Assembly: GCF_006274605.1 (NCBI RefSeq)
Contig: NZ_CP040846.1
Location: 2,115,041-2,179,040, forward strand
Direction: 5' to 3'
Origin: Thermococcus indicus
Lineage (GTDB): Archaea > Methanobacteriota_B > Thermococci > Thermococcales > Thermococcaceae
DNA: 64,000 nucleotides
This document shows positions 9,602 to 22,818 of this stretch, piece by piece (position 1 is the first letter of the stretch; every line of letters starts with the position of its first letter). The position numbers and the translations under genes were made by a program. The notes beneath the pieces were generated by a model. It searched no databases and was not told the DNA's origin. It saw only the letters and a program-made list of their open reading frames with translations.

Positions 9602-10950
9602 TCAGGCCCTGGCTATTGCCTCCCTCACCAGCCTCTCCGCCTTCTCCATCAAAGCTCTGGCCTTCTCCCCGGTGTGGGCCTCGAGAGTTATGCGCATTAT
9701 CGGCTCGGTTCCGCTCGGGCGGAAGAGGATCCACCAGTCGGAGTTCTCAATCCTGACCCCGTCTATGTCTATGAGCCTCTCGTAGTCGAAGCTCTTCAAA
9801 GCCTCCCTCGCTATGATTTCCATCGCTTTGGCCTTCTTCTCGTTGGGGCAGGGTATCTTGGCGCGGAGCGTAACGTAGCGCGGGACTTCCTTTGCTAACT
9901 CGCTCAGCGGGCCGAGTTTGTCTATCATCTCAAGAACAAGCGCTCCAGCAAAGATGCCATCAGGCGTCAAGTTCCACTCGGGCATTATCCAGGTTCCGCT
10001 CGGCTCGCCGCCGAAGACGCCGCCATGCTTGGCCAATTCATCAGCGACGGCAACGTCCCCAACGCGCGTTCTAATGACCTCTCCGCCAAGTGGCCTGACG
10101 TAGTCGTCTAGGGCGAAACCGGCATCTACAGTGGTAACTATCCTCCCCTTCCCGAACTTCCTGAGCATGTAGCCGGCTATGAGGCTTAGCATGACCTCGT
10201 ATTCCACGAAGTTCCCCAGGTCATCAACGACGCCAATCCTGTCGGCGTCGCCATCGTGGGCTATTCCAACGTCGGCCCTCATGGCCTTCACGGTCTTTGC
10301 CAGAGCGGACAGGCTCTCCGCGTTCGGCTCGAGCTCCCTCACGAAGAAGCCGCTGGAGTGGGAGTTGAGGGAGATAACCCTGTTGCCAAGCTCACGCTGG
10401 AGGTATGGACTCAGAATCGAGCCGGCACCGTTGCCGGAGTCGAGGACGACCGTGTACGAATCCCCAAGATGAACCATTTTAAGGGCCTCGCTGATGTACT
10501 CCCCCTCGGGTCGGCCTTCCTGAGGCTCCCAATCTCGTTCCAGGGGGCCTTCCTGAAATTCCCGGATTCCAGGATGGCCTCAAGCCTGTTCTCCATATCC
10601 GGCGTGTAGGCCATTCCATTGGCCTGCCACACCTTTATGCCGTTGTACTCCGGCGGGTTGTGGCTGGCCGTTATCGTAACGCCCGCATCAGCACCGTAGA
10701 GCCTGATGGCGAAGCCGGTGAGGGGCGTGGGCGCGAGGCCGATGTCTATAACGTCTATTCCCGCCGAAAGGAGCCCGCTTATTAAAGCTCTCTTCAGCAT
10801 CTCACCGCTCGTTCTCGTGTCCATGCCGACGACGACCGTTCCCTCACCAAGGAAAGTCCCAAGGGCCCTGCCAACGTTGAGGGCAAGCTCGGGGGTGAGT
10901 CTTTCGTTGACGACCTCTCGAATCCCGCTGGTTCCGAAGTACCTTCCCAT
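9602..10950 (-). pseudogene. Phosphomannomutase/phosphoglucomutase, one-base frameshift
   Basis: Two overlapping reading frames together encode one alpha-D-phosphohexomutase. The 5' frame (starting at ATG 10950) carries YFGTSGIRE and the phosphoserine loop [13 protein letters not shown]. The 3' frame carries the metal loop [10 protein letters not shown], the sugar loop GGEPSGTW and the phosphate loop [11 protein letters not shown]. The switch lies at the C run 10501-10505 (plus strand). Restoring one base there gives a continuous 449-residue protein with the expected [12 protein letters not shown] junction. All four family motifs are intact, so this is either a very recent mutation or a base-call error. 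RBS GGTGAG precedes the ATG. The enzyme would interconvert hexose 1- and 6-phosphates. Confidence 0.85.
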
Positions 10951-11058
10951 GAATCTCACCCGTGAGAATTATGGTACGCGTTGGGAGAGGGAAAATATAA
11001 CGTTTTCTCACGCCAAAGGAAAGGGAGAATTAATGAGGGAGGGAAAGGTTCCGGGCCC

Positions 11059-11769
11059 TCAGCCGCTGAAGGCCGCTATCTCCTTCCCCTTGGGGTTCAA
11101 TACGTGGACAACCACGTCCCCGCCAAGTTTCTGAGACAGGTCGGACGCCATCTGCCTATACGCGTTTTCGGCGTCGCCTATCTCGTCCCTGCTCTCGAAG
11201 GAGCTCACAGCCTTCACGTCGTAGGGATCGCTCCCTTCGAGGATTATGTCCCACGGCCCCTCGCCGACGAGCGAGACCGCATAATCAAGCACGGCCTTCG
11301 CCTTATCCTCGCCGGCGTCAGCGTACCACACGTATATGGTGCCGGAGTTCACGTACGAGTACCTGCTCTCCGCGGAGAAGAGCTCGTCCCTCTCGTCCGT
11401 CACGAGCTTCAGGGTCGATTTAGAGCCCCCGAACACGTCCTGCGACATCTTCGAGGCCATCATCTTCACGTAGAACTTCGTGGCATCGTCTATCTGGTCC
11501 GGGCTTGTGTAAGGCGTGGTCACCTCGACGATGTAAGCATCCCCGCTCTTAGCCAAATAGACGTCCGTTTCACCGGTTATCTGAAAGGTCTCTCCAACGA
11601 AGTCAATGAGCGCCTTGGCCTGCGAGAGCGACACGTCGCCGGAGTAGTGCACAGTTACATCGTTTATGGTGAGGGTCTTCTCAGTCTTCACATTCGTGTC
11701 CGGATTTTCACAGCCAGCGGCGATGACCAGAAGGGCCACCGCTAACAGGGCAAAGACGAGTTTCTTCAT
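11059..11769 (-). CDS. Lipoprotein of surface cluster A
   Basis: A 236-residue predicted lipoprotein. A lysine-rich start and hydrophobic stretch end in the lipobox VIAAGC, with the lipidated Cys at about residue 20. The mature part is acidic and beta/alpha mixed, with repeated SLSQAKALIDF-like and QMASDLSQKLGG-like segments, and resembles no family I know. The ATG at 11769 follows GAGGTGTGAAA and is preferred over GTG 11775. It is the last gene of a four-gene minus-strand operon (14038 to 11059) whose other products are also membrane-anchored or secreted. Confidence 0.6.
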   Translation of the reverse strand: MKKLVFALLAVALLVIAAGCENPDTNVKTEKTLTINDVTVHYSGDVSLSQAKALIDFVGETFQITGETDVYLAKSGDAYIVEVTTPYTSPDQIDDATKFYVKMMASKMSQDVFGGSKSTLKLVTDERDELFSAESRYSYVNSGTIYVWYADAGEDKAKAVLDYAVSLVGEGPWDIILEGSDPYDVKAVSSFESRDEIGDAENAYRQMASDLSQKLGGDVVVHVLNPKGKEIAAFSG

Positions 11770-11778
11770 TTTCACACC

Positions 11779-12522
11779 TCACTCACTTCCAATCTCACGG
11801 ACGCTTATCGCGTTCGCGAACTCCTCGGGAGAGAGCTCTCCCGAGAGGGCCTTCAGGAGAGCGTCGCTGGAGACGGAAACGCTGACGTTCCTCTCACCGA
11901 GGTAGACTATCTCCACCCTCTCGACCCAGGGAACAGCTTCCAGTATGGCGAGGCTCATCTTAGTGTAGTCCCTCCAGAAGAAGTCCTCTCCAGCCAGATA
12001 CTCGAGGGAAACACTCGCTGTGTCGTTAGTTAGGGCTACATTGTGCACGAGGACATCGAAGAGGCCCAGGTCGTTTTCAATCATGAACTCCGGCCTTCTA
12101 ATATCCTCGAAGGTAGCATTGTCGAGGTCACCGTTTCTGACCGTCAGCGCGATTACTGGCTCGTCCCCGAAGTAGGCCTCGACCCTGATGTTCTCGGAGC
12201 CGTTTTCGCGAGCTTTCTCAGCGAGGGTGTAGAGGGCACCGGGAAGGCTCCCGTCTATAATGCTCGTCTCGAAGCGTATAACCGTCCAGTTGCCGGAGTT
12301 CATAACGGTGACGTTCCCGGCTAAATCGGTGCCGGGACTTTCCGCCCCGTTGGATGAAGGAGTTTCTGTGGCGGTGGATGTCTCACCAGCGTTGTTCGTC
12401 AGGTTTTTGGCGGTATCGATAACCCGCTCCGGGCTTAGGTCGTCTGGAATCTGGAAGCCCCCGCTGAAGTACACGTAGCCACCGATGAGGAGCAGTATCA
12501 GGAGGAGGGCCTTTCCCTTCAT
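11779..12522 (-). CDS. Membrane-anchored protein of surface cluster A
   Basis: A 247-residue protein with one N-terminal membrane segment (about residues 3-20). A Ser/Thr/Asn-rich linker follows (about 45-70) and then an extracellular domain with many NxS/T sequons, suggesting glycosylation. There is no recognisable enzymatic motif. The ATG at 12522 overlaps the stop of the upstream gene (ATGA). It occupies the same operon position and has the same architecture as the Ca-binding-repeat protein in cluster B (14728-15957). Sequence similarity between them is limited to the N-terminal anchor and acidic linker. Confidence 0.6.
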   Translation of the reverse strand: MKGKALLLILLLIGGYVYFSGGFQIPDDLSPERVIDTAKNLTNNAGETSTATETPSSNGAESPGTDLAGNVTVMNSGNWTVIRFETSIIDGSLPGALYTLAEKARENGSENIRVEAYFGDEPVIALTVRNGDLDNATFEDIRRPEFMIENDLGLFDVLVHNVALTNDTASVSLEYLAGEDFFWRDYTKMSLAILEAVPWVERVEIVYLGERNVSVSVSSDALLKALSGELSPEEFANAISVREIGSE

Positions 12523-13910
12523 ATTACCCCCTCCTCGTAGAGCTTGTTTATGTAGAACCGTATCCTTGCCTCCTGGTCTCTAAAGTCGCCCTTGGAGTTC
12601 CTGTTCATCATGTTGACCCTGTGCATCCCCGTGGTGGTGTCCCTCATCTCGTCGATGGTGTTCCTGATGATGTCGCGGTACTTCATGCCGGCCTTCTTGT
12701 AGCGGATGGCAATTTTCGCGGTGGCTTCAAACTCCCACCGGTAGTCCTGGGCCAGGGTCTTCTTTATTGCCACGCCCATAGAGTTGAGAACCACCTCGAT
12801 CGGCTTCGTCTCGATGTTCGATGGAACTGCGTTCTTGTAGGGGGACATGGCCTTTTCGCGGTTCTCTATGTCCGACATGTCGTTGTAGAACGAGGCGCTC
12901 TTCTCGTCCACGTGCAGGTCTTTGGCGGTCTTCTTCACCGCCTCGCTATCGGAGAAGACGTTGACGTCCTTGTCGGCCTTGAAGTAGTCCTTGAGGAGCC
13001 CCAGCGGTTTGGGGAGGTAGTTTGCGGCCTGGTCGATGAAGGTATCGAGGGCCTTGTTGCCGTAGTACTTGGCCTTCCAGCCGAGTGCCGAGCTTCCGCC
13101 GGAATAGTCCGGGTCTGAGTTGATTACCCTGATAACGTCTCCCCTCGGTGTTTTGACGACCACGAATCCTCCCCACTTCTCACCGAGAGCTTTGAGTCCC
13201 TCCTTGGTTTCCGCCATTCTTCTGGCAGCATCCGGAGTCAATCCGTTGGAAGAAACCTCCGGGCTTTCAGGAACGGCCACCGATGAGCTAACCGGGACCC
13301 TAACCGTAGTGTTGGGGATTCTGCTCAGGTAGAGGTTGAGCAGAACCGGGGCGAGGCCCTCGAGGTCGCAGGCGTTCGCCCCAACCAGATATTCAACCTT
13401 GGCACTCACCAAGTAGTGGTCGTTGGCGAGGACATCGTAGGTGTGGGTCACCCCCGTGAAGCCGGTTCCGTCGAGGTACCTCTTGCCACAGAAGGACTTC
13501 AGGCTGACGTAGTTCCTTCCAGACTCGAACTCAAAATGGCAGAACTCCACGCCTATTTTCTGCCCATAGTCATCTGTCATGTCGTACTCGTAGTCCGTGT
13601 AGTTCGGCAAGTCTTTGAGGAGCCCATTAAACAGCTCAACGGCCTCGTTATCGGTGTAGTAGGTCGCCCCCACCCGGATGTAGTTGGCGCTCTCAGGGCT
13701 GTGGTTGGCGCACATGAAGTCCTGGACGACGTTGACGTAGTTTGAACCCTCCCAGCCGCCCCCACCCTGGCCGAAGGTGAGTATCAGGCCGAGGGATTCG
13801 GCCTCTTCCTTCGTTATCGCGGGTAACCGATCCGGAAACTGGGAGGCAGAAACGGGCAGGGCGAGTAGGAGTGCAACTCCCAGGAAAAGAATCAGGTTCT
13901 TGAACATCAT
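12519..13910 (-). CDS. Large secreted protein of surface cluster A
   Basis: A 463-residue exported protein. It has a signal peptide (FKNLILFLGVALLLALPVSA) and a Cys-containing N-terminal domain (residues about 30-200, including SGRNYVSLKSFCGKRYLDG). The C-terminal half is basic and helical, with no membrane anchor. The ATG at 13910 overlaps the stop of the small membrane protein gene (ATGATG). No family is recognised. Its place in the operon, after a one-TM small protein and before two anchored proteins, mirrors the 814-residue protein of cluster B. Confidence 0.6.
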   Translation of the reverse strand: MMFKNLILFLGVALLLALPVSASQFPDRLPAITKEEAESLGLILTFGQGGGGWEGSNYVNVVQDFMCANHSPESANYIRVGATYYTDNEAVELFNGLLKDLPNYTDYEYDMTDDYGQKIGVEFCHFEFESGRNYVSLKSFCGKRYLDGTGFTGVTHTYDVLANDHYLVSAKVEYLVGANACDLEGLAPVLLNLYLSRIPNTTVRVPVSSSVAVPESPEVSSNGLTPDAARRMAETKEGLKALGEKWGGFVVVKTPRGDVIRVINSDPDYSGGSSALGWKAKYYGNKALDTFIDQAANYLPKPLGLLKDYFKADKDVNVFSDSEAVKKTAKDLHVDEKSASFYNDMSDIENREKAMSPYKNAVPSNIETKPIEVVLNSMGVAIKKTLAQDYRWEFEATAKIAIRYKKAGMKYRDIIRNTIDEMRDTTTGMHRVNMMNRNSKGDFRDQEARIRFYINKLYEEGVI

Positions 13911-14038
13911 ACCAGCCTCCGAAGGAGCCCCAGGAACCACCTCGCGAGCAGGAGGAAAACTATAACTGCCCCAATGAGCAGGAGAAGCCCGAGTAGCGGG
14001 CCGAGAACGTTCAGGCCCGTGAGGGGTTCCGAGGGCAT
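13907..14038 (-). CDS. Small one-TM protein, first gene of cluster A
   Basis: A 43-residue protein with a single long hydrophobic segment (LNVLGPLLGLLLLIGAVIVF) and a basic tail (RWFLGLLRRLV), so the C-terminus is likely cytoplasmic. The ATG at 14038 follows GGAAGTGATCAG. The longer frame up to 14110 runs through the conserved leader and is not favoured: the equivalent leader of cluster B is conserved as DNA but in another frame. It overlaps the next gene by ATGA. The position matches the 54-residue one-TM protein that opens cluster B. Confidence 0.55.
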   Translation of the reverse strand: MPSEPLTGLNVLGPLLGLLLLIGAVIVFLLLARWFLGLLRRLV

Positions 14039-14180
14039 CTGATCACTTCCTGGCAAAACCGTCTCGCGAAAGAGAAAAGCGGGACAGCTCTGCGTTGATC
14101 CTTTTAACAAATTACGCAGTTATGAGTAATAAGACTTTCGGAAAAGAAAATTCAAGTGAGGATTTTATAAACAAAATTTC
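14039..14180 (-). promoter_or_regulatory. Promoter and leader of cluster A, copy of cluster B leader
   Basis: On the minus strand a BRE/TATA-like CGAAAGTCTTATTAC (14126-14140) is followed by CTGCGTAA. About 40 bases on lies a block (14062-14087) containing CCCGCTTTTCTCTTTCGCGA. The same elements recur in the same order at 18589-18661, with the block matching at 25 of 26 positions. TCTCTTTCGCGAGA can form a small stem. Reading frames through the block differ between copies, so the conservation is at nucleotide level, either from common origin or from a leader function. Confidence 0.6.
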
Positions 14181-14184
14181 TTCA

Positions 14185-14285
14185 ATGGCGAAGACTTTTC
14201 GCCAAATTGACCAGCTTCCTCGCCCTTTCGAGAGAGACCTCGTTTTCCACCCTTTCCGTCCCCGCTTGAGCCACGTGCGCATCCG
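14185..14285 (-). pseudogene. Remnant of the 3' end of btpA
   Basis: The minus strand reads VENEVSLERARKLVNLAKSL, nearly identical to the C-terminus of the intact BtpA-family gene at 18691-19473 (VENEVSLERARKLVELANKL). Upstream of this, GTGGCTCAAGCGGGGACGGA matches the intact gene's DNA with a small indel that breaks the frame. No start or upstream part of btpA is present. With the copied leader beside it, this marks the edge of a duplicated segment. The following bases 14286-14338 hold nothing recognisable. Confidence 0.75.
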
Positions 14286-14338
14286 GACGAACTCGAGGTC
14301 TCACCACAAAATGACATAAAAGAAAAAAGAAAATGGCC

Positions 14339-14722
14339 TCATTTCTTCTCCAGCCGGTAGATTCCAACGCTGACCTTGTAGGAATCGACGTTTACCGGGG
14401 CCTTATAGTCCACCCTGACCTGGAAACGCTGTGTTGTACCGTAGACCAGGCTGTCGGTTTCGGATTCTGTCAGAACGTTGCCGTTCTCGTCGAGTATCGT
14501 TATCTTCTCGACTGTCCCTTCACTGCTCGCGTTTATGTAGTACTTCCCAGGTTCAAGGACGTGGCTGAGGTAAAAGACATCACCCGAAACCGTCTCGGTC
14601 TTGACCTCCACCGGAACCTTGTCGTAGGCGTGAGTGTAGTAGTACTGGACGCCGAAAACACCGGCTATTCCGATGAGTATCAGCAGGAAGAAGCCCACCA
14701 CGAGCTTTTTTAACAATCCCAT
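14339..14722 (-). CDS. Membrane-anchored small protein of surface cluster B
   Basis: A 127-residue protein with one N-terminal membrane segment (LVVGFFLLILIGIAGVFGV) and an extracellular beta-rich domain of about 100 residues, including LEPGKYYINASSEGTVEKI. The pattern recalls small beta-sandwich domains, but I cannot name a family. The ATG at 14722 follows GGAGGTGAGAAAG, a strong site, and is preferred over GTG 14731. It is the last gene of cluster B, the counterpart by position of the cluster A lipoprotein. Confidence 0.6.
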   Translation of the reverse strand: MGLLKKLVVGFFLLILIGIAGVFGVQYYYTHAYDKVPVEVKTETVSGDVFYLSHVLEPGKYYINASSEGTVEKITILDENGNVLTESETDSLVYGTTQRFQVRVDYKAPVNVDSYKVSVGIYRLEKK

Positions 14723-14727
14723 CTTTC

Positions 14728-15957
14728 TCACCTCCCAGCGTTTCTGTACTCGATTTCAACCACGTGCCCGCAGTCTCCGATTCTCTCGTGGGAAACGAGG
14801 GTAAAGGCAGTGTAGCTCCCGTCGGAGTTTCTGTTCACATAAACATGGCCGATTACCACTTCCATAGCTCCTTCCTCCGCTGGGTATCCTGAGGCTGGGA
14901 TGTCCCCAACGGTAAGCTCCTCAAGGCTCTTTGCTCCGATGTCAACGTAGTGGCCTAGTATCGCCGGATAATCCACGCACCACGGCTCCAACGCTATATC
15001 CATCTTCTCCCAGTCCTCAAGGGTCTGGAAAATTTCGCCGGTGGAGAACCTTATTCCAACGCTACCGTTGGTTGAGAGCGTTGCTTTCATCAGCCCACCG
15101 AGCTCGCCGGTAATGTTCTCTCTTTCCGTCCCGCTTTCCGTTTCGGTGAATGACTCGTAGCAGGCTTTGGCCTTCTCGTATTTCCCGTAGGCTTCCTCAA
15201 GCTTCTCCTTGAGTTCGTCGCTCGGCTCGTCGTTGTACTGGGCCTGGAGTTTGGTTACGTTGTTGTAGGCCTGAACATAGAGCCTGTAGGCATCTTCAAC
15301 GGTCTGGGGGCAGGCGGCGGTTTCGTTTTCCGGGGAAGCGAGGACCGGCCCGCCCTGGAACTCGTCGAAGACGCCGTCGAAGTCCATGTCGTGAAGGTCC
15401 GGATTTCCATCCCCGTCAACGTCCCTCTCGTCTATAACCCCGTCGGAGTTTATGTCCCACGCGTCAACCTTCCCGTCGCCGTCGGTGTCGTAAACATCTG
15501 CGATTCCATCGCCGGTCAAATCCCAGGCGTAGCTCTTTTCGCCGTTGAACGTCGTTACCCACTCATCGGTTTTGCCGTCGTAGTTCTGGTCGAGGTATTT
15601 GGTATCGTAGTTTCCATCCCCCGTCGTGTCAAGGTAGACGGCATCTATTTTTCCGTCGTCGTTCCTGTCGAGGAAGAGGACGTAGGTCGAGTTCACCCTC
15701 ACCGCTCCAAATCCCTCGCCTATGTAGACGTCTCCTTCGCTTCCGTTGCCGGCCCAGCCGGAGCCGGAGAAGCCTTTCTCCCCGGTGTTGGTTCCAGCAG
15801 AGTTTCCGTTATCGTTTCCGGGGTTTTCATTCCCCGAGTCGATGCCTTCGGCCTTCTCCCTGGCCTTCTTCGTGAGGTCGTCGATTACCCTCGGATTGCT
15901 GTGGTAGATGTAGGCAACGAGGAGAACCACCAGGAGGAGCACGATGAGCTTCTTCAT
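14728..15957 (-). CDS. Membrane-anchored protein with Ca-binding-type DxDxDG repeats
   Basis: A 409-residue protein with an N-terminal membrane segment (LIVLLLVVLLVAYIY) and an Asn/Gly-rich linker. Residues about 95-205 contain at least seven acidic loops such as DRNDDGKID, DTTGDGNYD, DQNYDGKTD, DTDGDGKVD, DINSDGVID and DVDGDGNPD. These resemble EF-hand, dockerin or thrombospondin type 3 calcium loops. A helical segment and a C-terminal domain with several Cys follow. It is probably anchored outside the cell and calcium-stabilised. The ATG at 15957 lies one base after the stop of the upstream large protein. Confidence 0.7.
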   Translation of the reverse strand: MKKLIVLLLVVLLVAYIYHSNPRVIDDLTKKAREKAEGIDSGNENPGNDNGNSAGTNTGEKGFSGSGWAGNGSEGDVYIGEGFGAVRVNSTYVLFLDRNDDGKIDAVYLDTTGDGNYDTKYLDQNYDGKTDEWVTTFNGEKSYAWDLTGDGIADVYDTDGDGKVDAWDINSDGVIDERDVDGDGNPDLHDMDFDGVFDEFQGGPVLASPENETAACPQTVEDAYRLYVQAYNNVTKLQAQYNDEPSDELKEKLEEAYGKYEKAKACYESFTETESGTERENITGELGGLMKATLSTNGSVGIRFSTGEIFQTLEDWEKMDIALEPWCVDYPAILGHYVDIGAKSLEELTVGDIPASGYPAEEGAMEVVIGHVYVNRNSDGSYTAFTLVSHERIGDCGHVVEIEYRNAGR

Positions 15958-15958
15958 C

Positions 15959-18403
15959 TCACTTCACCTCCACGAAGGTCGTCGGACCGAGCCAGCCGCC
16001 GCTCACGCGCCTGAACTTCTTTCCCGTCTCGTAGTCCTCGTATATTCCTGGCGTCTCCGTCTCGTGGAGAACGTAGCCGTTCCAGGTGAACCAGCCCCCG
16101 TTCCTCTCCTCGAGCTTCTTCCTAAGGTTCACGAGGGAAGAAACGGTAGCGTCCGCCATGTTACCGAAGTAGCCAGTCGGGTCGAGGAGCTTGCCTATTT
16201 TGGTGGCCCCATCAAGGACTATTATGGAAACCTTCGTTCTGTCGTCGAGGTTCATCTTGCTCAGTTCCCTCGCCTGGTCCATCAGCGATTTCGCGTCCTG
16301 GGCGACGAGGAATATGCCGAGGGGGGTGGTGAGCATTTTCACCTTGGCATTTCCCTTCAGCTTGACGGTATCTCCAACCTTCTCGAAGTTTGTGGCCACG
16401 AACTGAGCCCAGTCGAGTGCCCCACCGGAGCCGTACTGACCTCCCACCAGCCACTTGGGCGGGTCTATTATTCCCGTTAGAATGGCGTTTTTCAGGGCCT
16501 CCTTTGTGGATTCCTCCTCGGCGTGGCTGTATACGAAATCTTTGAGCTTTATGTCCCTCATTATAGGGTCGTACTGGTATTTCTTGGCGATATCGAGCAG
16601 TTCCGCCTGCTTCTCGGGGTCGTCCTTGAATATCGAGAGGTAAGCATTCAGCTTCTGCCTCCCGTAGACCTTCTCGTTCATGTAGGCGTTCATCCGCCTG
16701 ACCATCTCCTCAGGATTGTCCCCGTATTTCCCGTGAATCTCGTTGATGTCGTCGAGGTAAATCGAGTAAACGCTCTCCATGCTTGGGTTCAGCTCGATGG
16801 CCTTCTTCAGGTACTCAACGTGCCGCTTGTATATCCCCTCGGCCCACTCCTTCTGCTTTTCCAGAACGCACTCGTCGCAGGTGAAGACGTCAGGGTCGTC
16901 GCAGTCAATCAAACCATCCCCGTCGTTGTCTATACCATCACCGGGCTTCTCCTCGCCCCAGAAGTTCAAACTAACGCTGTCCGAGGCTATGACGTTTCCT
17001 TCAGCATCGTAGAGCTGAACCGAAATCTCACCGCTGTTTCCGGGGTTGGTGATTCTCAAGATGTCCGCTATAAAGCCCCCACCCGCATCTACCCTGTGCC
17101 TTGAACCATCCGGAGAAATCACGACGGCGTAGGAGGCGTTGCCCTTAACTTCAGCCCAGAGGGGAATGACGAAGGCATCCCCAACGGTCGGCTCCAGCCT
17201 GGCACCGTTCCTTGGGGAGGTTATCCTCACGGTCGCCTTTTCAGGTTGTTGAGTTGTCGCGTTTGCCTCCCCTGCGTTTTCAGATTTCACGAACATCCAC
17301 GAAACCTCGACTTCTTCGCCGGAATCTGTCCTAACCACGGCCCTCGCGGGGCCCTCCCTGAGTTCTCCGGGCGGAATTAGGATTTCAAGGACGACGCTCG
17401 CCATCCCGTTCCTCATCCAGCCCTCGCAAAGGTAAGCCTCAGTTGAGGTTCTCTCGGAAGTGAGCTTGGCAAAGTACTCCTCCTCAGTCAGAACCCTTGG
17501 CTTCCCGCTGTAAGGCCCTCCAGGCCCAGAGTACGAGACGGTCAAAGAATATATCCCGTTGGCGTCGAAGAGGTTGAAGGTCAGAGCCATAAGCGTCGTC
17601 CCGTTGGCATCCTCTGGAGTGAAGTATATCTCGCCGATGTAGCCCGGACTAACCGAAGCCTCACCGGACGATGACTCGTTGCTCCCGTAATTGCTTATGG
17701 CAGATATGGTTATATCACCGACCCGGAGGGGGTAGTTTTGGGATATCACCGCGTTGAAGACATCGTTGGCCATTCCTGAGAAGAAGCCCCTAAAGTCGGA
17801 GTTCATAACGGCCAGAATTTGCTCGCGGTATTTCCGGTATTCATCCTCCTTGAAGTAGTCGTAGCAGGTTGAACTCCCGTTGATATCGTAAACGCAGCTC
17901 GTCTCTATGAAGTCGTTGGGGCTTTTGGAGTAGCCACCGTAGGCGGTGAGTGTTACGGTGAAGACGGTGTAGGTCTCGGTGAAGGAGTAGGTGAACTCGT
18001 AGCCCACCAGCAGTTCCCTGGTAACAGGGGCGCCGTCAGAGCCATCGGGATAGTATGTGATGTTGGTCTTTAGCGGAGTGATTTTAAAGTCCTGGGTGAG
18101 GTTCATTGGCTTTGCATATTCGTCGAGGCGGGAGAAGTCCTCCGGCGAACCAACCTCGTACCTCTTTATGTGCACGCTCACATGATATGGGGCCATTCCG
18201 CTTTCGGAGTAGTTCCCGCTTCCGTAGAGGTGCATATAGGATACACCGCTCTCCACCTCGGCGGCATCAACCCTGCCAATTAGGACTCCCTTATCGGTTA
18301 GAATTCTCTCTATCGCGCCCCGGGGCGGTAAAACCGCCGAGGCAAGGCCAACGGTCATTAAAAGCGTGATTACAATAAGCGCAAGGGCTTTGGATTTGCT
18401 CAA
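15959..18403 (-). CDS. Large secreted protein of surface cluster B
   Basis: An 814-residue exported protein. The signal peptide is ALALIVITLLMTVGLASA. An N-terminal beta-rich region has repeated Tyr-rich strands. Around residue 500 an acidic calcium-type loop, GDGIDNDGDGLIDCDDPD, is followed by a helical region and a C-terminal domain ending GGWLGPTTFVEV. No enzyme family is recognised. The start is TTG 18403, overlapping the TGA of the small upstream gene (TTGA), with GAGGAGGGA as ribosome binding site. It and the calcium-repeat protein downstream probably belong to one surface assembly. Confidence 0.65.
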   Translation of the reverse strand: MSKSKALALIVITLLMTVGLASAVLPPRGAIERILTDKGVLIGRVDAAEVESGVSYMHLYGSGNYSESGMAPYHVSVHIKRYEVGSPEDFSRLDEYAKPMNLTQDFKITPLKTNITYYPDGSDGAPVTRELLVGYEFTYSFTETYTVFTVTLTAYGGYSKSPNDFIETSCVYDINGSSTCYDYFKEDEYRKYREQILAVMNSDFRGFFSGMANDVFNAVISQNYPLRVGDITISAISNYGSNESSSGEASVSPGYIGEIYFTPEDANGTTLMALTFNLFDANGIYSLTVSYSGPGGPYSGKPRVLTEEEYFAKLTSERTSTEAYLCEGWMRNGMASVVLEILIPPGELREGPARAVVRTDSGEEVEVSWMFVKSENAGEANATTQQPEKATVRITSPRNGARLEPTVGDAFVIPLWAEVKGNASYAVVISPDGSRHRVDAGGGFIADILRITNPGNSGEISVQLYDAEGNVIASDSVSLNFWGEEKPGDGIDNDGDGLIDCDDPDVFTCDECVLEKQKEWAEGIYKRHVEYLKKAIELNPSMESVYSIYLDDINEIHGKYGDNPEEMVRRMNAYMNEKVYGRQKLNAYLSIFKDDPEKQAELLDIAKKYQYDPIMRDIKLKDFVYSHAEEESTKEALKNAILTGIIDPPKWLVGGQYGSGGALDWAQFVATNFEKVGDTVKLKGNAKVKMLTTPLGIFLVAQDAKSLMDQARELSKMNLDDRTKVSIIVLDGATKIGKLLDPTGYFGNMADATVSSLVNLRKKLEERNGGWFTWNGYVLHETETPGIYEDYETGKKFRRVSGGWLGPTTFVEVK

Positions 18404-18564
18404 GTCTCATCCCTCCTCTTTTTTGTGACCCTCGCCGGAAGAAGGACGGGGATGAAAACGAAAGCAAAAACCAGCGCTCCCACGACCGGTCCCAACGGAT
18501 GGAACCCGGTTGGATAACCACCCGTATCCGGTTGAGAAGCCGTGGTGATGATAGTTAAACACAT
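18400..18564 (-). CDS. Small one-TM protein, first gene of cluster B
   Basis: A 54-residue protein with one membrane segment (GPVVGALVFAFVFIPVLL) followed by a basic tail (PARVTKKRRDET), topologically like the opener of cluster A. The ATG at 18564 follows GGGAAGGGACTGAG. A GTG at 18621 would extend the frame through the conserved leader and is judged unlikely. The stop overlaps the TTG of the next gene. Confidence 0.55.
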   Translation of the reverse strand: MCLTIITTASQPDTGGYPTGFHPLGPVVGALVFAFVFIPVLLPARVTKKRRDET

Positions 18565-18690
18565 CTCAGTCCCTTCCCAAGGAACCCCTCTCGCGGAAGA
18601 GAAAAGCGGGACAGGGTTCACCTTTTTACTTGTTACGCAGTCATAGGTAATAAGTCTTTCGCAAAATAAAATTCGAGATTTGAAAGATTT
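18565..18690 (-). promoter_or_regulatory. Promoter and leader of cluster B, copy of cluster A leader
   Basis: On the minus strand, CGAAAGACTTATTAC (18647-18661) serves as BRE/TATA. CTGCGTAAC follows, then the 26-base block at 18589-18614 containing CCCGCTTTTCTCTTCCGCGA, and the ATG at 18564. The order and most bases match 14062-14140. The intact btpA gene ends just upstream at 18691, exactly where the cluster A copy has a btpA remnant. Confidence 0.6.
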
Positions 18691-19473
18691 CTAAGACGAA
18701 TTTCGAAGTTTATTCGCCAGCTCGACCAGCTTCCTCGCCCTCTCGAGGGAGACCTCGTTTTCGACCTTCCCGTCCCGCTTGATCCACGTGCCCACTATGA
18801 AGCCGTCCGCGAACTTCCATAGCCCCGGCAGGTTGTCGTAAGTCGTCCCGGAGCCGACCACCACCGGCACCGGCGAGACCCTCTTCGCCAATGCGAGCCT
18901 TTCCAAATCGACTGGCTTTCCGGTCGCCTTTCCACTCACGACGATCGCATCTGCGAGGCCCCTCTCAATGGTGTCCCTTACCGCGTCCTCAAACTCGAAG
19001 AAGTGGACGGCGTGCTTGACATGGACGTCGGCGAAGACCTTGATTTTGCTCGGGAGGAGCTTTCTGAGCCTTGCCAGCTCGTGGGCGATGCCCTCTATGA
19101 GGCCCTGGTCAGTGTAGGCAACGCCACTCAGCACGTTCACCCTTATGAAGTCCGCCCTGACGGCGTAGGCTATTGAATAAGCCGCTATCCCGTCGTTGCG
19201 GAGGACGTTTATCCCCAGGGGCAGGCTCACCTCGTCGCGGATTGCCTTGGCGACGGCCGTGAATGCCGCGACAGTCGTCTTGTCCACGTACTTTGGGAAC
19301 GGGATGTCGCCGAAGTTCTCGACCATCATCGCGTCGAAGCCCGCCTTTTCAAGGGTTTTCGCGTCATTAACGGCCAGCTCGATGACGTTATCAAGGTTCC
19401 CAACGTAGAGGTAGGAACCCGGAAGGGGCTTCAGGTGAACCATGCCTATGAGGGGTTTCCGCTCGAATTCCAT
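18691..19473 (-). CDS. BtpA family TIM-barrel protein
   Basis: A 260-residue protein of the BtpA/SgcQ family. It starts with KPLIGMVHLKPLPGSY and has GFDAMMVENFGDIPF (about residues 45-59), LGINVLRND (about 86-94), FADVHVKHAVHF (about 146-157) and VVGSGTTYDNL near the C-terminus. The fold is a TIM barrel resembling nucleoside or sugar-phosphate enzymes. The founding member affects photosystem I assembly in cyanobacteria, which cannot be its job here, so the reaction is unknown. The 3' end of this gene is also present as a fragment at 14185-14285. Confidence 0.85.
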   Translation of the reverse strand: MEFERKPLIGMVHLKPLPGSYLYVGNLDNVIELAVNDAKTLEKAGFDAMMVENFGDIPFPKYVDKTTVAAFTAVAKAIRDEVSLPLGINVLRNDGIAAYSIAYAVRADFIRVNVLSGVAYTDQGLIEGIAHELARLRKLLPSKIKVFADVHVKHAVHFFEFEDAVRDTIERGLADAIVVSGKATGKPVDLERLALAKRVSPVPVVVGSGTTYDNLPGLWKFADGFIVGTWIKRDGKVENEVSLERARKLVELANKLRNSS

Positions 19474-19596: not shown

Positions 19597-22500
19597 ATGG
19601 TGAGGCGGAAATACATCGCCTTTCTCACGCTGACACTGCTCTCCCTCCTCCTTGTCTCCGTCGTGCTTGGACCAGCCCTCATCGAGGCCCCGCCCGGAAC
19701 CAAGAGCATCGAGGAGATACTCTCTCCGAAGCTTCCGCCCGGGAACGAGAGCAACGAAACCGGGCCGCCGGCTGAGGCTCCGGTTTCTCCCCACTTCGTT
19801 CTCCTCGTAACTGGGGCGGCCCACACCCACTACCTCAGGCTCAACGTGTACACCGACTACATCAACGGGAGCTGGAGGACGGAAAACGCCACGGCGATTC
19901 CGAGCAACGTCATCGCCCCACCAGAAATAAACGTCCCCCATCACGCCGAAAGGGATATAATAACCGTCGTCTCGTTTCTTCCCCTCAGCGGGAACCTCTT
20001 CACCTCCCTCTACACGACCCGCGTTGACGGTGCCGGGGCCGAGGCGATTCCTGAATACAACCTCTTCAGAACACCCATGAACGTGACGACCTACTCGTTC
20101 TCCGCGGTGGGCTACACCTTCGACATGCCATACCTGGTCAACCTCACCGCTGGAAACCAGACGGAGTATCTCTCGGCCCCCAACGACACCCGGCTGACGG
20201 CCCTGGCGGAGAGCATAACGACGGGGGCACGCTCGGACTACTGGAAAGCACTCAGTATAGTCAGGTACCTGGCCGGCAACTACAGGCACGTGGAGGACGT
20301 GACTCCCCCCGAGGGGGCTGACAGGCTGACGTGGTTCCTGTTCGAATCAAAGACGGGCAGCGCATACGACTTCGCCTCCGCCCTCGTGGTTCTGGCCAGG
20401 CTGAACGGCCTTCCCGCGAGGCTCGTCGAGGGGGTTTACATCGATGCAGTCCCCCAGACCCAGGTCGTGACCGAAAAGAACAGGCACTTCTGGGCCGAGG
20501 TTTACTTCAAGAACACCGGCTGGCTGGTCTTCGACCCCCTGCACCCCACGGATCAGAACGTGTACCTGCCCTTCGAACTGGAGGCACCCGGGGTTCTGAT
20601 GCCCCTTGAGCCCGATTCCTCCGGAACGGTTACGATAAAGTTCGAGCGGGTCGCGAGCGGGACGAACTCGAGCGTCACCGTGGACGTTCCGACCCTCGGG
20701 AGGATAGCGCTCATCAGGGAGTCGGGGATATACAACCTGACGGTGGGCCCCTTTGAGGAGCCCGGCTACTATCCCCTCATGGTCAGGGCATCGGACAGGG
20801 AAGGAAACTCGCTGACCCGGATCGTCCCGGTGACTGTCCCCGGAAACGTGAGCGCCCTGCCCGACCCGGCCGTGGCGTACCTGCGCAAGAACGATGCACT
20901 TACCCTGGAGCTCACCGTGCCAGGCACAGGGGGGACGGGCCTCAGAACGGAATCCCCGCTGGTGGATTCCTGGTTCTCCATCGAGACCCCTCGGAACGAG
21001 ACCAGGGTGTACGTCAGGCTAATCTCCCCCGACGATTACCCGAACGGCTGGCACATCGAGAACCTCACCGTCACAAGGGGAGCAGACGAATACAAAATCC
21101 ACCTCCCGGTTTTCGTCGTGGAGCGAACCGAAATAAAAGCGGGGGTACAGAGAGCGGTGACCGCCGGGGGCTCGTTCGTCATAAACGGAACCGTGGAAGG
21201 CAGCACCACGGGCGAGCGGCCGCGCCTGGGAAGCGTGGCGGCGTTCATAAACGACGGGGAAAGGGACGTCCTGATAGGCTACGCAAACGCATCCAACGGG
21301 ACCTTCGCACTCCCCGTTAAAATCCCGGTGTACCTCTCCCCCGGGACGAAGCAGGTTTTCGTATACTACCTCACCCCCCTCGGATACCCCTACCTCCCCT
21401 CAGGGGCCACGTTCACGGTCGAAGTCAGGGGGCTGGCCAGATTCTCGATGCCCGGGCTGATCCTGGCCAGACCCGGCAACGTCACGGTCATAGGTAGTCT
21501 CCTCAGCGGGGCGGGGAGACCGATAGCCAATGCCAGCATCGAATACTACCTCGATGGAAGGCCCCTCGGAGAGACCACCACCCTGACGGACGGCAGGTTC
21601 TCCCTGGTTCTCCAGCTTCCCCAGATTGAGAGGCACGTGCTGACCGTGAGGTACCCCGGAAGTCCCGTTTACTCCCCGTCCGCCATGAACGTCACGGTGG
21701 CGACCGTTGAGCTGAAGGTTCCGGAGAGGATAACCGGAGAAATCGGGGAGCCCGTCAGAATCAGCGGAAAGGTCGCTGGGGTGGAAGATGCGACCCTGCA
21801 GGCCTATGTGTTCCCTGGGAAGACGTATCAGGTAAACGTGATCAACGGGAGCTTTGAACTGACGATCGAACCATTCCAGACTGTCGGGGAAAGGTCCGTG
21901 GAATTCCGCCACGGCACCAGAACCCTGGGGAGAACAGCGGTAGCGGTTCTTTCACCGGTGGAAATAGAGCTCCTGACGCCGAGGGCGGAGGGCGAAAAAA
22001 CCGCCGCGCTGAGGTTCAGGGTCGTTGATTCCGCCAACAATCCGGTAAGCGGGGTTTACCTCAACGTCAGCGTGGACGGCTTCGCGATGCGGGTAATGAC
22101 CAACGGTTCTGGAATAGCCACCCTAGAAGTCCCCGTGCCGGAGAAGGAAACCAACGCAACGGTGGTTGTTGCTTTCGACGGCTCCTCCTACTACCTGCCC
22201 GCGAGCGGGAGGTTCCACGTCGTGATATCCAGAAAACGGGGAATCCCCTGGACCTACATTGCCATAGCTCTGGTTATCGGTGCACTGATAGTCAGATACC
22301 GTCTCGTGAGAAGAAAACCGGAGAAGAGGGGAGTGGAGAAGGTTCTGAAGATTATCTTCAACAACGGTATTCCCGTATTCAGGGAGGGGGAAACGGTGGA
22401 GCTGAGCATCGAGTGCGAGGGAAAGGCGGAGCTTTACGTTGATGGAAAGCCGGCTGGGAAGGGCAGGGACTTTACCCTGGCCCTGGAAGTTGGGGAACAC

Positions 22501-22818
22501 ACCATAGAGGCCCGCTGCGGGGAGCTCATCGAACGTGCGACCGTGAGGATAGTACCCCGCTACGATGACGCGGTGATCGATTACTACGAGAGGTGCTTCC
22601 TGCCGTGGGCCAGAGGGACCGGCCTGGACGTCGAAGGGATGACCCCCAGGGAGATAGCCGCGGCGCTGACGGACATGATGTACCCATGGGAGCCCCTAGA
22701 CACCCTAACGGAGGTCTTCGAGAGGGCCAAGTACAGCACGGTCGAGGTGTCGCGGGGAGAGTTCATCAGATTTTACCGCTCGCTCCTCGAGCTGGTTGGA
22801 GGTGGTTGCATTGTTTAA
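19597..22818 (+). CDS. Transglutaminase-like membrane protein with C-terminal DUF4129
   Basis: A 1073-residue exported protein. An N-terminal signal/anchor (residues about 6-25) leads to an extracellular region with many NxT/S sequons. A transglutaminase-like core follows at about 210-320, then Ig-like beta domains to about 870, one membrane segment at about 883-902, and a cytoplasmic DUF4129-like tail. In the core the His (NRHFWAEV, about 297) and Asp (VFDPL, about 313) are present. The usual Cys position reads GSAYDFASAL, with Ala at about 256, so peptide cross-linking or protease activity is doubtful. The gene heads an operon with MoxR and DUF58 proteins, the common partners of this architecture. 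Confidence 0.85.
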   Translation: MVRRKYIAFLTLTLLSLLLVSVVLGPALIEAPPGTKSIEEILSPKLPPGNESNETGPPAEAPVSPHFVLLVTGAAHTHYLRLNVYTDYINGSWRTENATAIPSNVIAPPEINVPHHAERDIITVVSFLPLSGNLFTSLYTTRVDGAGAEAIPEYNLFRTPMNVTTYSFSAVGYTFDMPYLVNLTAGNQTEYLSAPNDTRLTALAESITTGARSDYWKALSIVRYLAGNYRHVEDVTPPEGADRLTWFLFESKTGSAYDFASALVVLARLNGLPARLVEGVYIDAVPQTQVVTEKNRHFWAEVYFKNTGWLVFDPLHPTDQNVYLPFELEAPGVLMPLEPDSSGTVTIKFERVASGTNSSVTVDVPTLGRIALIRESGIYNLTVGPFEEPGYYPLMVRASDREGNSLTRIVPVTVPGNVSALPDPAVAYLRKNDALTLELTVPGTGGTGLRTESPLVDSWFSIETPRNETRVYVRLISPDDYPNGWHIENLTVTRGADEYKIHLPVFVVERTEIKAGVQRAVTAGGSFVINGTVEGSTTGERPRLGSVAAFINDGERDVLIGYANASNGTFALPVKIPVYLSPGTKQVFVYYLTPLGYPYLPSGATFTVEVRGLARFSMPGLILARPGNVTVIGSLLSGAGRPIANASIEYYLDGRPLGETTTLTDGRFSLVLQLPQIERHVLTVRYPGSPVYSPSAMNVTVATVELKVPERITGEIGEPVRISGKVAGVEDATLQAYVFPGKTYQVNVINGSFELTIEPFQTVGERSVEFRHGTRTLGRTAVAVLSPVEIELLTPRAEGEKTAALRFRVVDSANNPVSGVYLNVSVDGFAMRVMTNGSGIATLEVPVPEKETNATVVVAFDGSSYYLPASGRFHVVISRKRGIPWTYIAIALVIGALIVRYRLVRRKPEKRGVEKVLKIIFNNGIPVFREGETVELSIECEGKAELYVDGKPAGKGRDFTLALEVGEHTIEARCGELIERATVRIVPRYDDAVIDYYERCFLPWARGTGLDVEGMTPREIAAALTDMMYPWEPLDTLTEVFERAKYSTVEVSRGEFIRFYRSLLELVGGGCIV

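Follow-up and report, generated by a model that had tools for sequence, protein, structure and literature searches.

Two predicted surface-protein operons of different types lie in tandem behind btpA in the window (the whole stretch of 64,000 nucleotides analyzed, at 2.115 to 2.179 Mb of the 2.23-Mb genome of Thermococcus indicus), each preceded by a copy of the same leader. The explanation proposed here, which we regard as probable, is that the interval between btpA and a glmM-like gene is an exchange site, that a foreign operon was recombined in via btpA, and that the two operons share a controlling leader hairpin. In Thermococcus, the site would hold a surface operon of two main types (F8/F9 and F20/F22), both beginning with the same leader, namely an archaeal promoter followed by an RNA hairpin of ~45 nt at or near the mRNA 5' end. 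Homologous recombination in btpA would have brought in a donor segment, from within btpA to P130, that comprised the 3' part of the donor btpA and the foreign F20/F22/F5 operon together with the leader belonging to it. This would have produced an intact hybrid btpA and shifted the resident F8/F9 operon downstream behind its original leader, which in turn follows a scar of ~33 codons from the end of the former btpA. The btpA end and the leader could act as homologous seams for operon swaps between strains in which expression control is kept, and the hairpin would most likely control the translation or stability of the operon mRNA via its nearly invariant pyrimidine loop.

Gene organization of the region

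The genes are on the minus strand and, read from 19.5 to 11.0 kb, are ordered btpA, a small membrane ORF, S814, P409, P130, a btpA fragment, the second leader, a small ORF, S473, P247, and P238. The intact btpA (18691-19473) was assigned by PF03437 (E = 1e-107). It is followed by the BRE/TATA-like promoter of the upstream operon (18648-18662; GCGAAAG-A-CTTATTA, conserved in 46 leaders), the upstream hairpin (18576-18623), and the first gene of this operon, a membrane ORF of 54 aa (18400-18564) assigned as an ORF with similarity to its downstream counterpart. S814 (family F20; 15959-18403) is a predicted secreted surface protein with a conserved C-terminal region of 435 aa and a variable N terminus. 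P409 (F22; 14728-15957), the constant partner of F20, is predicted to be membrane anchored and has Asp/Asn-rich repeats, and P130 (F5; 14339-14731) is a small membrane protein of the same operon. The scar (14182-14285) is a frameshifted remnant of the resident btpA that covers about its last 33 codons and is 85% identical to the intact gene and 87% identical to the btpA of the relative G072. Then come the BRE/TATA-like promoter of the downstream operon (14127-14141; CCGAAAG-T-CTTATTA, from the aligned leaders), the downstream hairpin (14049-14096), and a membrane ORF of 43 aa as the first gene (13907-14038; 78 to 89% identical in G038, G072, and G015). S473 (F8; 12519-13910) is a predicted secreted surface protein and the presumed resident allele, P247 (F9; 11779-12522) is its constant, membrane-anchored partner, and P238 (F15; 11059-11775) is lipoprotein-like, with the lipobox LVIAAGC in its translation and 92% identity in G072.

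Both small first ORFs encode tiny membrane proteins with a TGxxxLGPxxG motif; in other genera the operons open with longer versions of ~150 aa with a signal peptide. P409 contains a run of DxDGxxD-type repeats that resemble calcium-binding repeats and gave no Pfam match. A frameshift at a G-run near 10500 divides the glmM-like PGM/PMM gene (9602-10959) into parts of 182 and 291 aa; nearly all relatives have an intact gene (452 aa), and the split is either a sequencing error or a recent pseudogene. Positions 19597-22818 encode a divergent surface protein of 1073 aa, transglutaminase-like with Ig repeats and a DUF4129 end, found directly upstream of btpA in many relatives.

The operon proteins yielded no usable match in Pfam, NCBIfam, or PADLOC, and no toxin or defense domain. 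Their hydrophobic N termini, the lipobox, and the Asp/Asn-rich repeats suggest an envelope complex. Structure models of S814 and S473 were built from only 4 and 2 alignment rows and, at mean pLDDT values of 57 and 47, were too weak for the naming of folds. As leads only, Foldseek matched a stretch of the S473 N terminus to PsbP/LpqN-like structures from its weak model and S814, from the model of mean pLDDT 57, to Ig/FnIII-like structures, including RbmA.

The repeat of the btpA tail and leader

A first-pass annotation of this DNA had described a repeat at 14062-14285 and 18589-18795 and proposed a self dot plot of 11 to 19.5 kb. Self-comparison of 11.0 to 19.6 kb gave a single strong off-diagonal match in that place (14057-14282 against 18584-18795), with 76% identity over 230 nt including gaps (E = 2.6e-38); the next-best match had an E value of 0.018. 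The repeated pieces are colinear and comprise a 26-base block with one mismatch (14062-14087 and 18589-18614), the heptamer TTACGCA (14112-14118 and 18633-18639), and the 3' end of btpA (14184-14281 and 18699-18794). The annotation was likewise right in recognizing an intact btpA at 18691 and a fragment near 14185-14285. It had raised the prospect that this similarity was confined to a few codon-biased residues; the match is a colinear nucleotide match of ~95 nt with indels. The TATA element had been misplaced, as TTTTATAA near 14166 falls opposite gaps, the conserved promoter element being the minus-strand CGAAAG-n-CTTATTA at the promoter positions given above. The idea that conservation singles out the leader holds across species only: inside this genome, the btpA remnant tail is ~85% identical to intact btpA, the same level of similarity as that of the leader.

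Ancestry of the two copies

Sequence comparison indicates that the downstream copy (btpA scar, leader, S473, and P247) is orthologous to G072. Between the downstream leader (14043-14181) and that of G072, identity is 93.5%, and the two are sisters in the leader tree (support, 99/92), with the upstream leader placed elsewhere. The F8 protein of G072, 92% identical to S473 (dN/dS, 0.13), sits directly behind the G072 btpA. The dS values to G072 for S473 (0.28), P247 (0.31), and the first 160 codons of btpA (0.27) represent one level, and P130 of the upstream operon gave 0.64; with dN/dS values of 0.11 to 0.31, the coding genes look constrained.

The upstream copy, by the same kind of comparison, is foreign to the G072-like lineage. 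The C-terminal region of S814 is sister to that of G016 (100/100) with 83% identity, against ~60% for other F20 proteins, and the btpA of G016 (76% identical) is among the most divergent of the genus. The window btpA itself switches ancestry. Mismatch to G072 is ~3 to 12% per 60-nt window before nt 480 and ~20% in most windows after it, and the break was placed at nt 284 by max-chi2 (permutation p = 0.0005). The first ~480 nt were assigned to the resident, G072-like ancestry and the 3' part to another. From the orthology of the downstream copy, the foreignness of the upstream copy, and this switch, we infer that a second allele recombined in through btpA. G052 has a comparable scar, in which the same hairpin comes after a btpA pseudogene. 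Counting against this reading, ancestry breaks in btpA were also seen in other comparisons (G012 and G050), and the F20 gene of G016 (contig 347) is without a hairpin before it, the hairpins of G016 being on another contig. No donor genome with the whole inserted segment was found among the genomes compared, and the insert is presumably mosaic itself, since the N terminus of S814 is not G016-like.

The first-pass annotation had taken the repeat for a segmental duplication within the genome, after which the downstream proteins diverged. S473 and S814, however, share no significant similarity and belong to two separate families, each with orthologues in other genomes. Had the btpA tail, leader, and operon truly been duplicated in tandem, in this lineage or an ancestor, one operon must then have been replaced or have diverged fast, and relatives such as G072 must have lost one copy. 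Such a duplication would explain a colinear repeat within one genome, and forcing the two window leaders together cost 23.6 log-likelihood units, at which the AU test was only marginal (p = 0.054). The leaders are nevertheless not sisters, and divergence from G072 is at one level for S473, P247, and the downstream leader but not for the upstream operon. Tandem duplication is therefore considered unlikely on the leader tree, dS, and family membership, which also disfavor the version with rapid divergence, and the repeat is probably not a segmental duplication.

Exchange of operon types in relatives

The btpA neighborhoods of 56 genomes were taken, and their genes were clustered into families. 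The interval between btpA and the PGM/PMM gene holds nothing, a small operon (F5 and F15), or one of two operon types, F8 (S473) with F9 (P247) or F20 (S814) with F22 (P409), with F5, F15, and F14 commonly next. A single surface operon behind btpA is the norm across ~60 Thermococcus genomes, and both types in tandem were found only in the window genome and in G047. The window genome has one leader per operon; in G047, only one was found, and it is degenerate. Variation in the large proteins is N terminal, the C-terminal regions being conserved and keeping their partner gene (F8 with F9 and F20 with F22). Modules are also swapped within the proteins, as G054 combines an F8-type N terminus with an F20 C terminus, and the N terminus of the G039 F8 protein is 59% identical to that of the G047 F20 protein.

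When the F8/F20 label was mapped on the leader tree, 10 changes were counted, compared to 9.5 for shuffled labels, and well-supported branches require at least 5 of them. In the pairs G054/G058, G071/G011, and G053/G044, closely related leaders precede different operons. Operon type is thus random on the leader phylogeny, which matches the prediction for a cassette system. Variable operons beneath a conserved leader are also what the first-pass annotation had named beforehand as support for cassettes, and its suggestion that the proteins were replaced by recombination agrees with operon types switching at random beneath the leaders. We put forward, as a tentative extension, that these are surface-identity cassettes across the Thermococcaceae, in which one undescribed class of RNA leader may mark and control interchangeable operons and the btpA end and leader may form a docking seam at which alleles are acquired, stacked, or replaced, the window genome holding two alleles at once.

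Further insertions occur at the same seam; in G059 (locus L057), for example, ORFs of 357 and 178 aa on the reverse strand separate btpA from the leader. A second hairpin copy precedes a different large protein in G099, G102, and G016 (L103 7627-10536, L104 5903-8816, and L112 3534-5239, respectively). This protein has ~946 to 949 aa, is truncated in G016, and possibly represents a third operon type. No plasmid relatives were found.

Sequence and structure of the leader hairpin

The 26-base block, searched with up to 3 mismatches, was found in 43 of 61 genomes, nearly always at one place, and the reversed pattern used as a control gave zero matches in the 61 genomes. The block was accordingly rejected as a plain promoter motif before many unrelated genes, which the first-pass annotation had offered as the alternative. 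It was also rejected as coding sequence of the small ORF, its two copies being in different frames relative to their ATG. Common to the aligned leaders is TCGAATTTT-CCGAAAG-n-CTTATTAC-TGCGTAA, a BRE/TATA-like promoter; the block comes next and forms the top of a predicted 5'-UTR hairpin of ~45 nt including flanks. This hairpin has the form GCAAAACC-U-GUC-C-CGC-[UUUUCUYUUYY]-GCG-A-GAU-GGUUUUGC, with a nearly invariant apical stem and a likewise nearly invariant loop of pyrimidines.

The structure is supported by the following data from 42 distinct leaders. Pairing is possible in 89.3% of cells, compared to 37 to 49% when the partners are slid, and two-sided changes numbered 48 against 25 expected, a value reached in 0 of 500 shuffles. 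The covariation score was 0.27 against 0.16 (0 of 500 shuffles), and pair 8-40, for example, is A-U in 15 leaders and C-G in 15. Nearly the same helix was returned by RNAalifold unaided. The folding energy of the downstream hairpin is -20 kcal/mol (z = -3.1); that of the upstream hairpin is unexceptional (z = -0.6). Rfam gave no match up to E = 5 in 13.8 to 19.0 kb. The leader was deemed a candidate for a new structured RNA, and the earlier suspicion that it is under selection is upheld by its covarying hairpin, which is essentially confined to sites in front of this operon family.

The block could instead be solely a promoter or DNA operator, conserved as a transcription factor site, and its position just behind the BRE/TATA-like element would suit this. 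The two-sided compensatory changes and the G-U states on the sense strand fit RNA, however, and would not be expected of a DNA operator, and the deduced start site lies upstream of the block, so that this alternative is improbable. The G-U states are frequent and agree with the operon's sense strand. In T. kodakarensis, the TATA box lies ~23 bp before the start site (PMC4247193), and by this distance most leaders would have their hairpin at the extreme 5' terminus of the transcript.

Distribution of the hairpin and linkage to the operon

A covariance model built from the aligned leaders was run on Thermococcales genomes of six genera; it matched the upstream window copy with E = 2.9e-15 and the downstream copy with E = 2.1e-12. 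Strong full-length matches were obtained in five genera, all Thermococcaceae, out of six sampled in the order. The genus g9, with neither the F8 nor the F20 family, had no significant match, and other families of the class gave only one marginal match (E = 0.007) among 21 genomes. All genomes with F8 or F20 C-terminal regions have a model match, partial in two (G086 and G089). Among Thermococcus genomes, the hairpin was present in 49/49 with operon genes near btpA and absent in 7/7 without them (Fisher p = 4e-9); in G016, the hairpins and the F20 gene are on separate contigs. Pairing reaches 92% in 12 hairpins that were not used to train the model and are too alike for a covariation test. Weak matches in G005 (1154744), G073 (C14 58444), and G021 (C65), with E values of 5e-4 to 7e-3, are probably due to chance. 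In G005 (L115 4745; E = 5e-4) and G073 (L114 4445; E = 0.003), the weak match is a differently shaped hairpin before a lipoprotein gene, again probably a chance match but possibly a distant relative of the leader.

The Thermococcus hairpin is usually ~75 nt behind the btpA stop codon, as would be expected if it belonged to btpA as a 3' end or terminator and not to the operon. It is nevertheless missing behind btpA in all seven genomes with no following operon, and it precedes the same gene families with no btpA upstream in G104 (1.757 Mb), G105 (contig 9), G090, and G052 (contig 207). The terminator reading was rejected on these loci unless they are misassembled, and can hardly be correct. Hairpin-headed operons also lie upstream of btpA in G099, G102, and G105 (contig 2), and the hairpins at the other-genus and G052 sites are each behind a TATA-like element.

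Possible action of the hairpin

Two modes of action were weighed for a leader that would be transcribed with the operon and would alter its expression. In the first, a 5'-terminal stem-loop would protect the operon mRNA from 5' decay or bind a protein that sets its stability, which we consider possible. The deduced start is within a few nucleotides of the stem in most leaders by the distance rule (PMC4247193), and the loop and apical stem are nearly invariant. For protection alone, however, a loop this close to invariant would be unnecessary, and in G104 the stem begins further from the deduced start. In the second, somewhat doubtful on its own, the pyrimidine loop would pair with the downstream ribosome-binding site and block translation until heat, a protein, or a trans-acting RNA releases it. 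The duplexes in 46 leaders were stronger than those with shuffled downstream sequence (mean z = -0.93, by a lenient control in which shuffling breaks purine runs) and reached -10.8 kcal/mol in the upstream copy. Against this, any purine-rich ribosome-binding site would fit, and a fitting site is missing in some leaders. Set against each other, the protective or protein-binding role and the pairing of loop and ribosome-binding site are deemed equally possible.

Comparison with known systems

Few structured 5'-UTR regulators have experimental support in archaea, and the hairpin, with its strong covariation, is a small and sharply defined candidate. It tags an exchangeable surface operon and could therefore be used to find alleles and to test surface variation by cassette exchange. 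The genus Thermococcus includes genetically tractable species. Two surface gene sets side by side with a shared leader make an unexplained surface-variation system testable. Among the papers searched, there was no description of this exchangeable surface operon and no paper with both BtpA and Thermococcus.

The leader resembles archaeal 5'-UTR regulatory RNAs in its conserved predicted structure within the long 5'-UTRs of Thermococcus mRNAs (PMC4247193). The general mark of a cis-acting 5'-UTR RNA, a conserved structure with compensatory changes before the same genes, was found. Fluoride and preQ1 riboswitches have been noted in T. kodakarensis, and as of 2014 there was no direct in vivo support for archaeal attenuators or riboswitches (PMC4247193). 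Unlike these two riboswitches, the leader has no Rfam match, belongs to one operon family, and is a single small hairpin with no known ligand. The operons share with polymorphic toxin systems modular secreted proteins, module exchange, and a module-specific neighbor gene. Polymorphic toxins, in contrast, have diverse C-terminal toxins with an immunity protein as the neighbor; here there are two conserved C-terminal families, and the partner is secreted or anchored and not a recognized immunity protein.

The closest parallel considered is VARTIG, the hypervariable Ig-domain surface modules of Thermococcales, with five Ig-like domains in the large protein, as described in the available text of Makarova et al. 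(2021; PMC8416519). In that text, VARTIG resembles the operons between btpA and glmM in having secreted proteins restricted to Thermococcales in a variable locus, a large first protein followed by small membrane proteins, and in-place exchange between species with shuffling of modules. VARTIG adjoins an RNase III-like gene (arCOG05836), whereas the flanks here are btpA, PGM/PMM, and the transglutaminase-like surface protein (the scan for RNase III covered part of the island genes). VARTIG varies at the C-terminal Ig domain; here the N terminus varies and the C-terminal types keep a fixed partner. The large VARTIG protein ends in D[ND]NxxxG[GD], a motif found in 0 of 40 F8/F20 proteins, and the RNA leader seen here is not mentioned for VARTIG in the same text. 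On this comparison, the operon is classed as VARTIG-like in behavior and not as a member of VARTIG.
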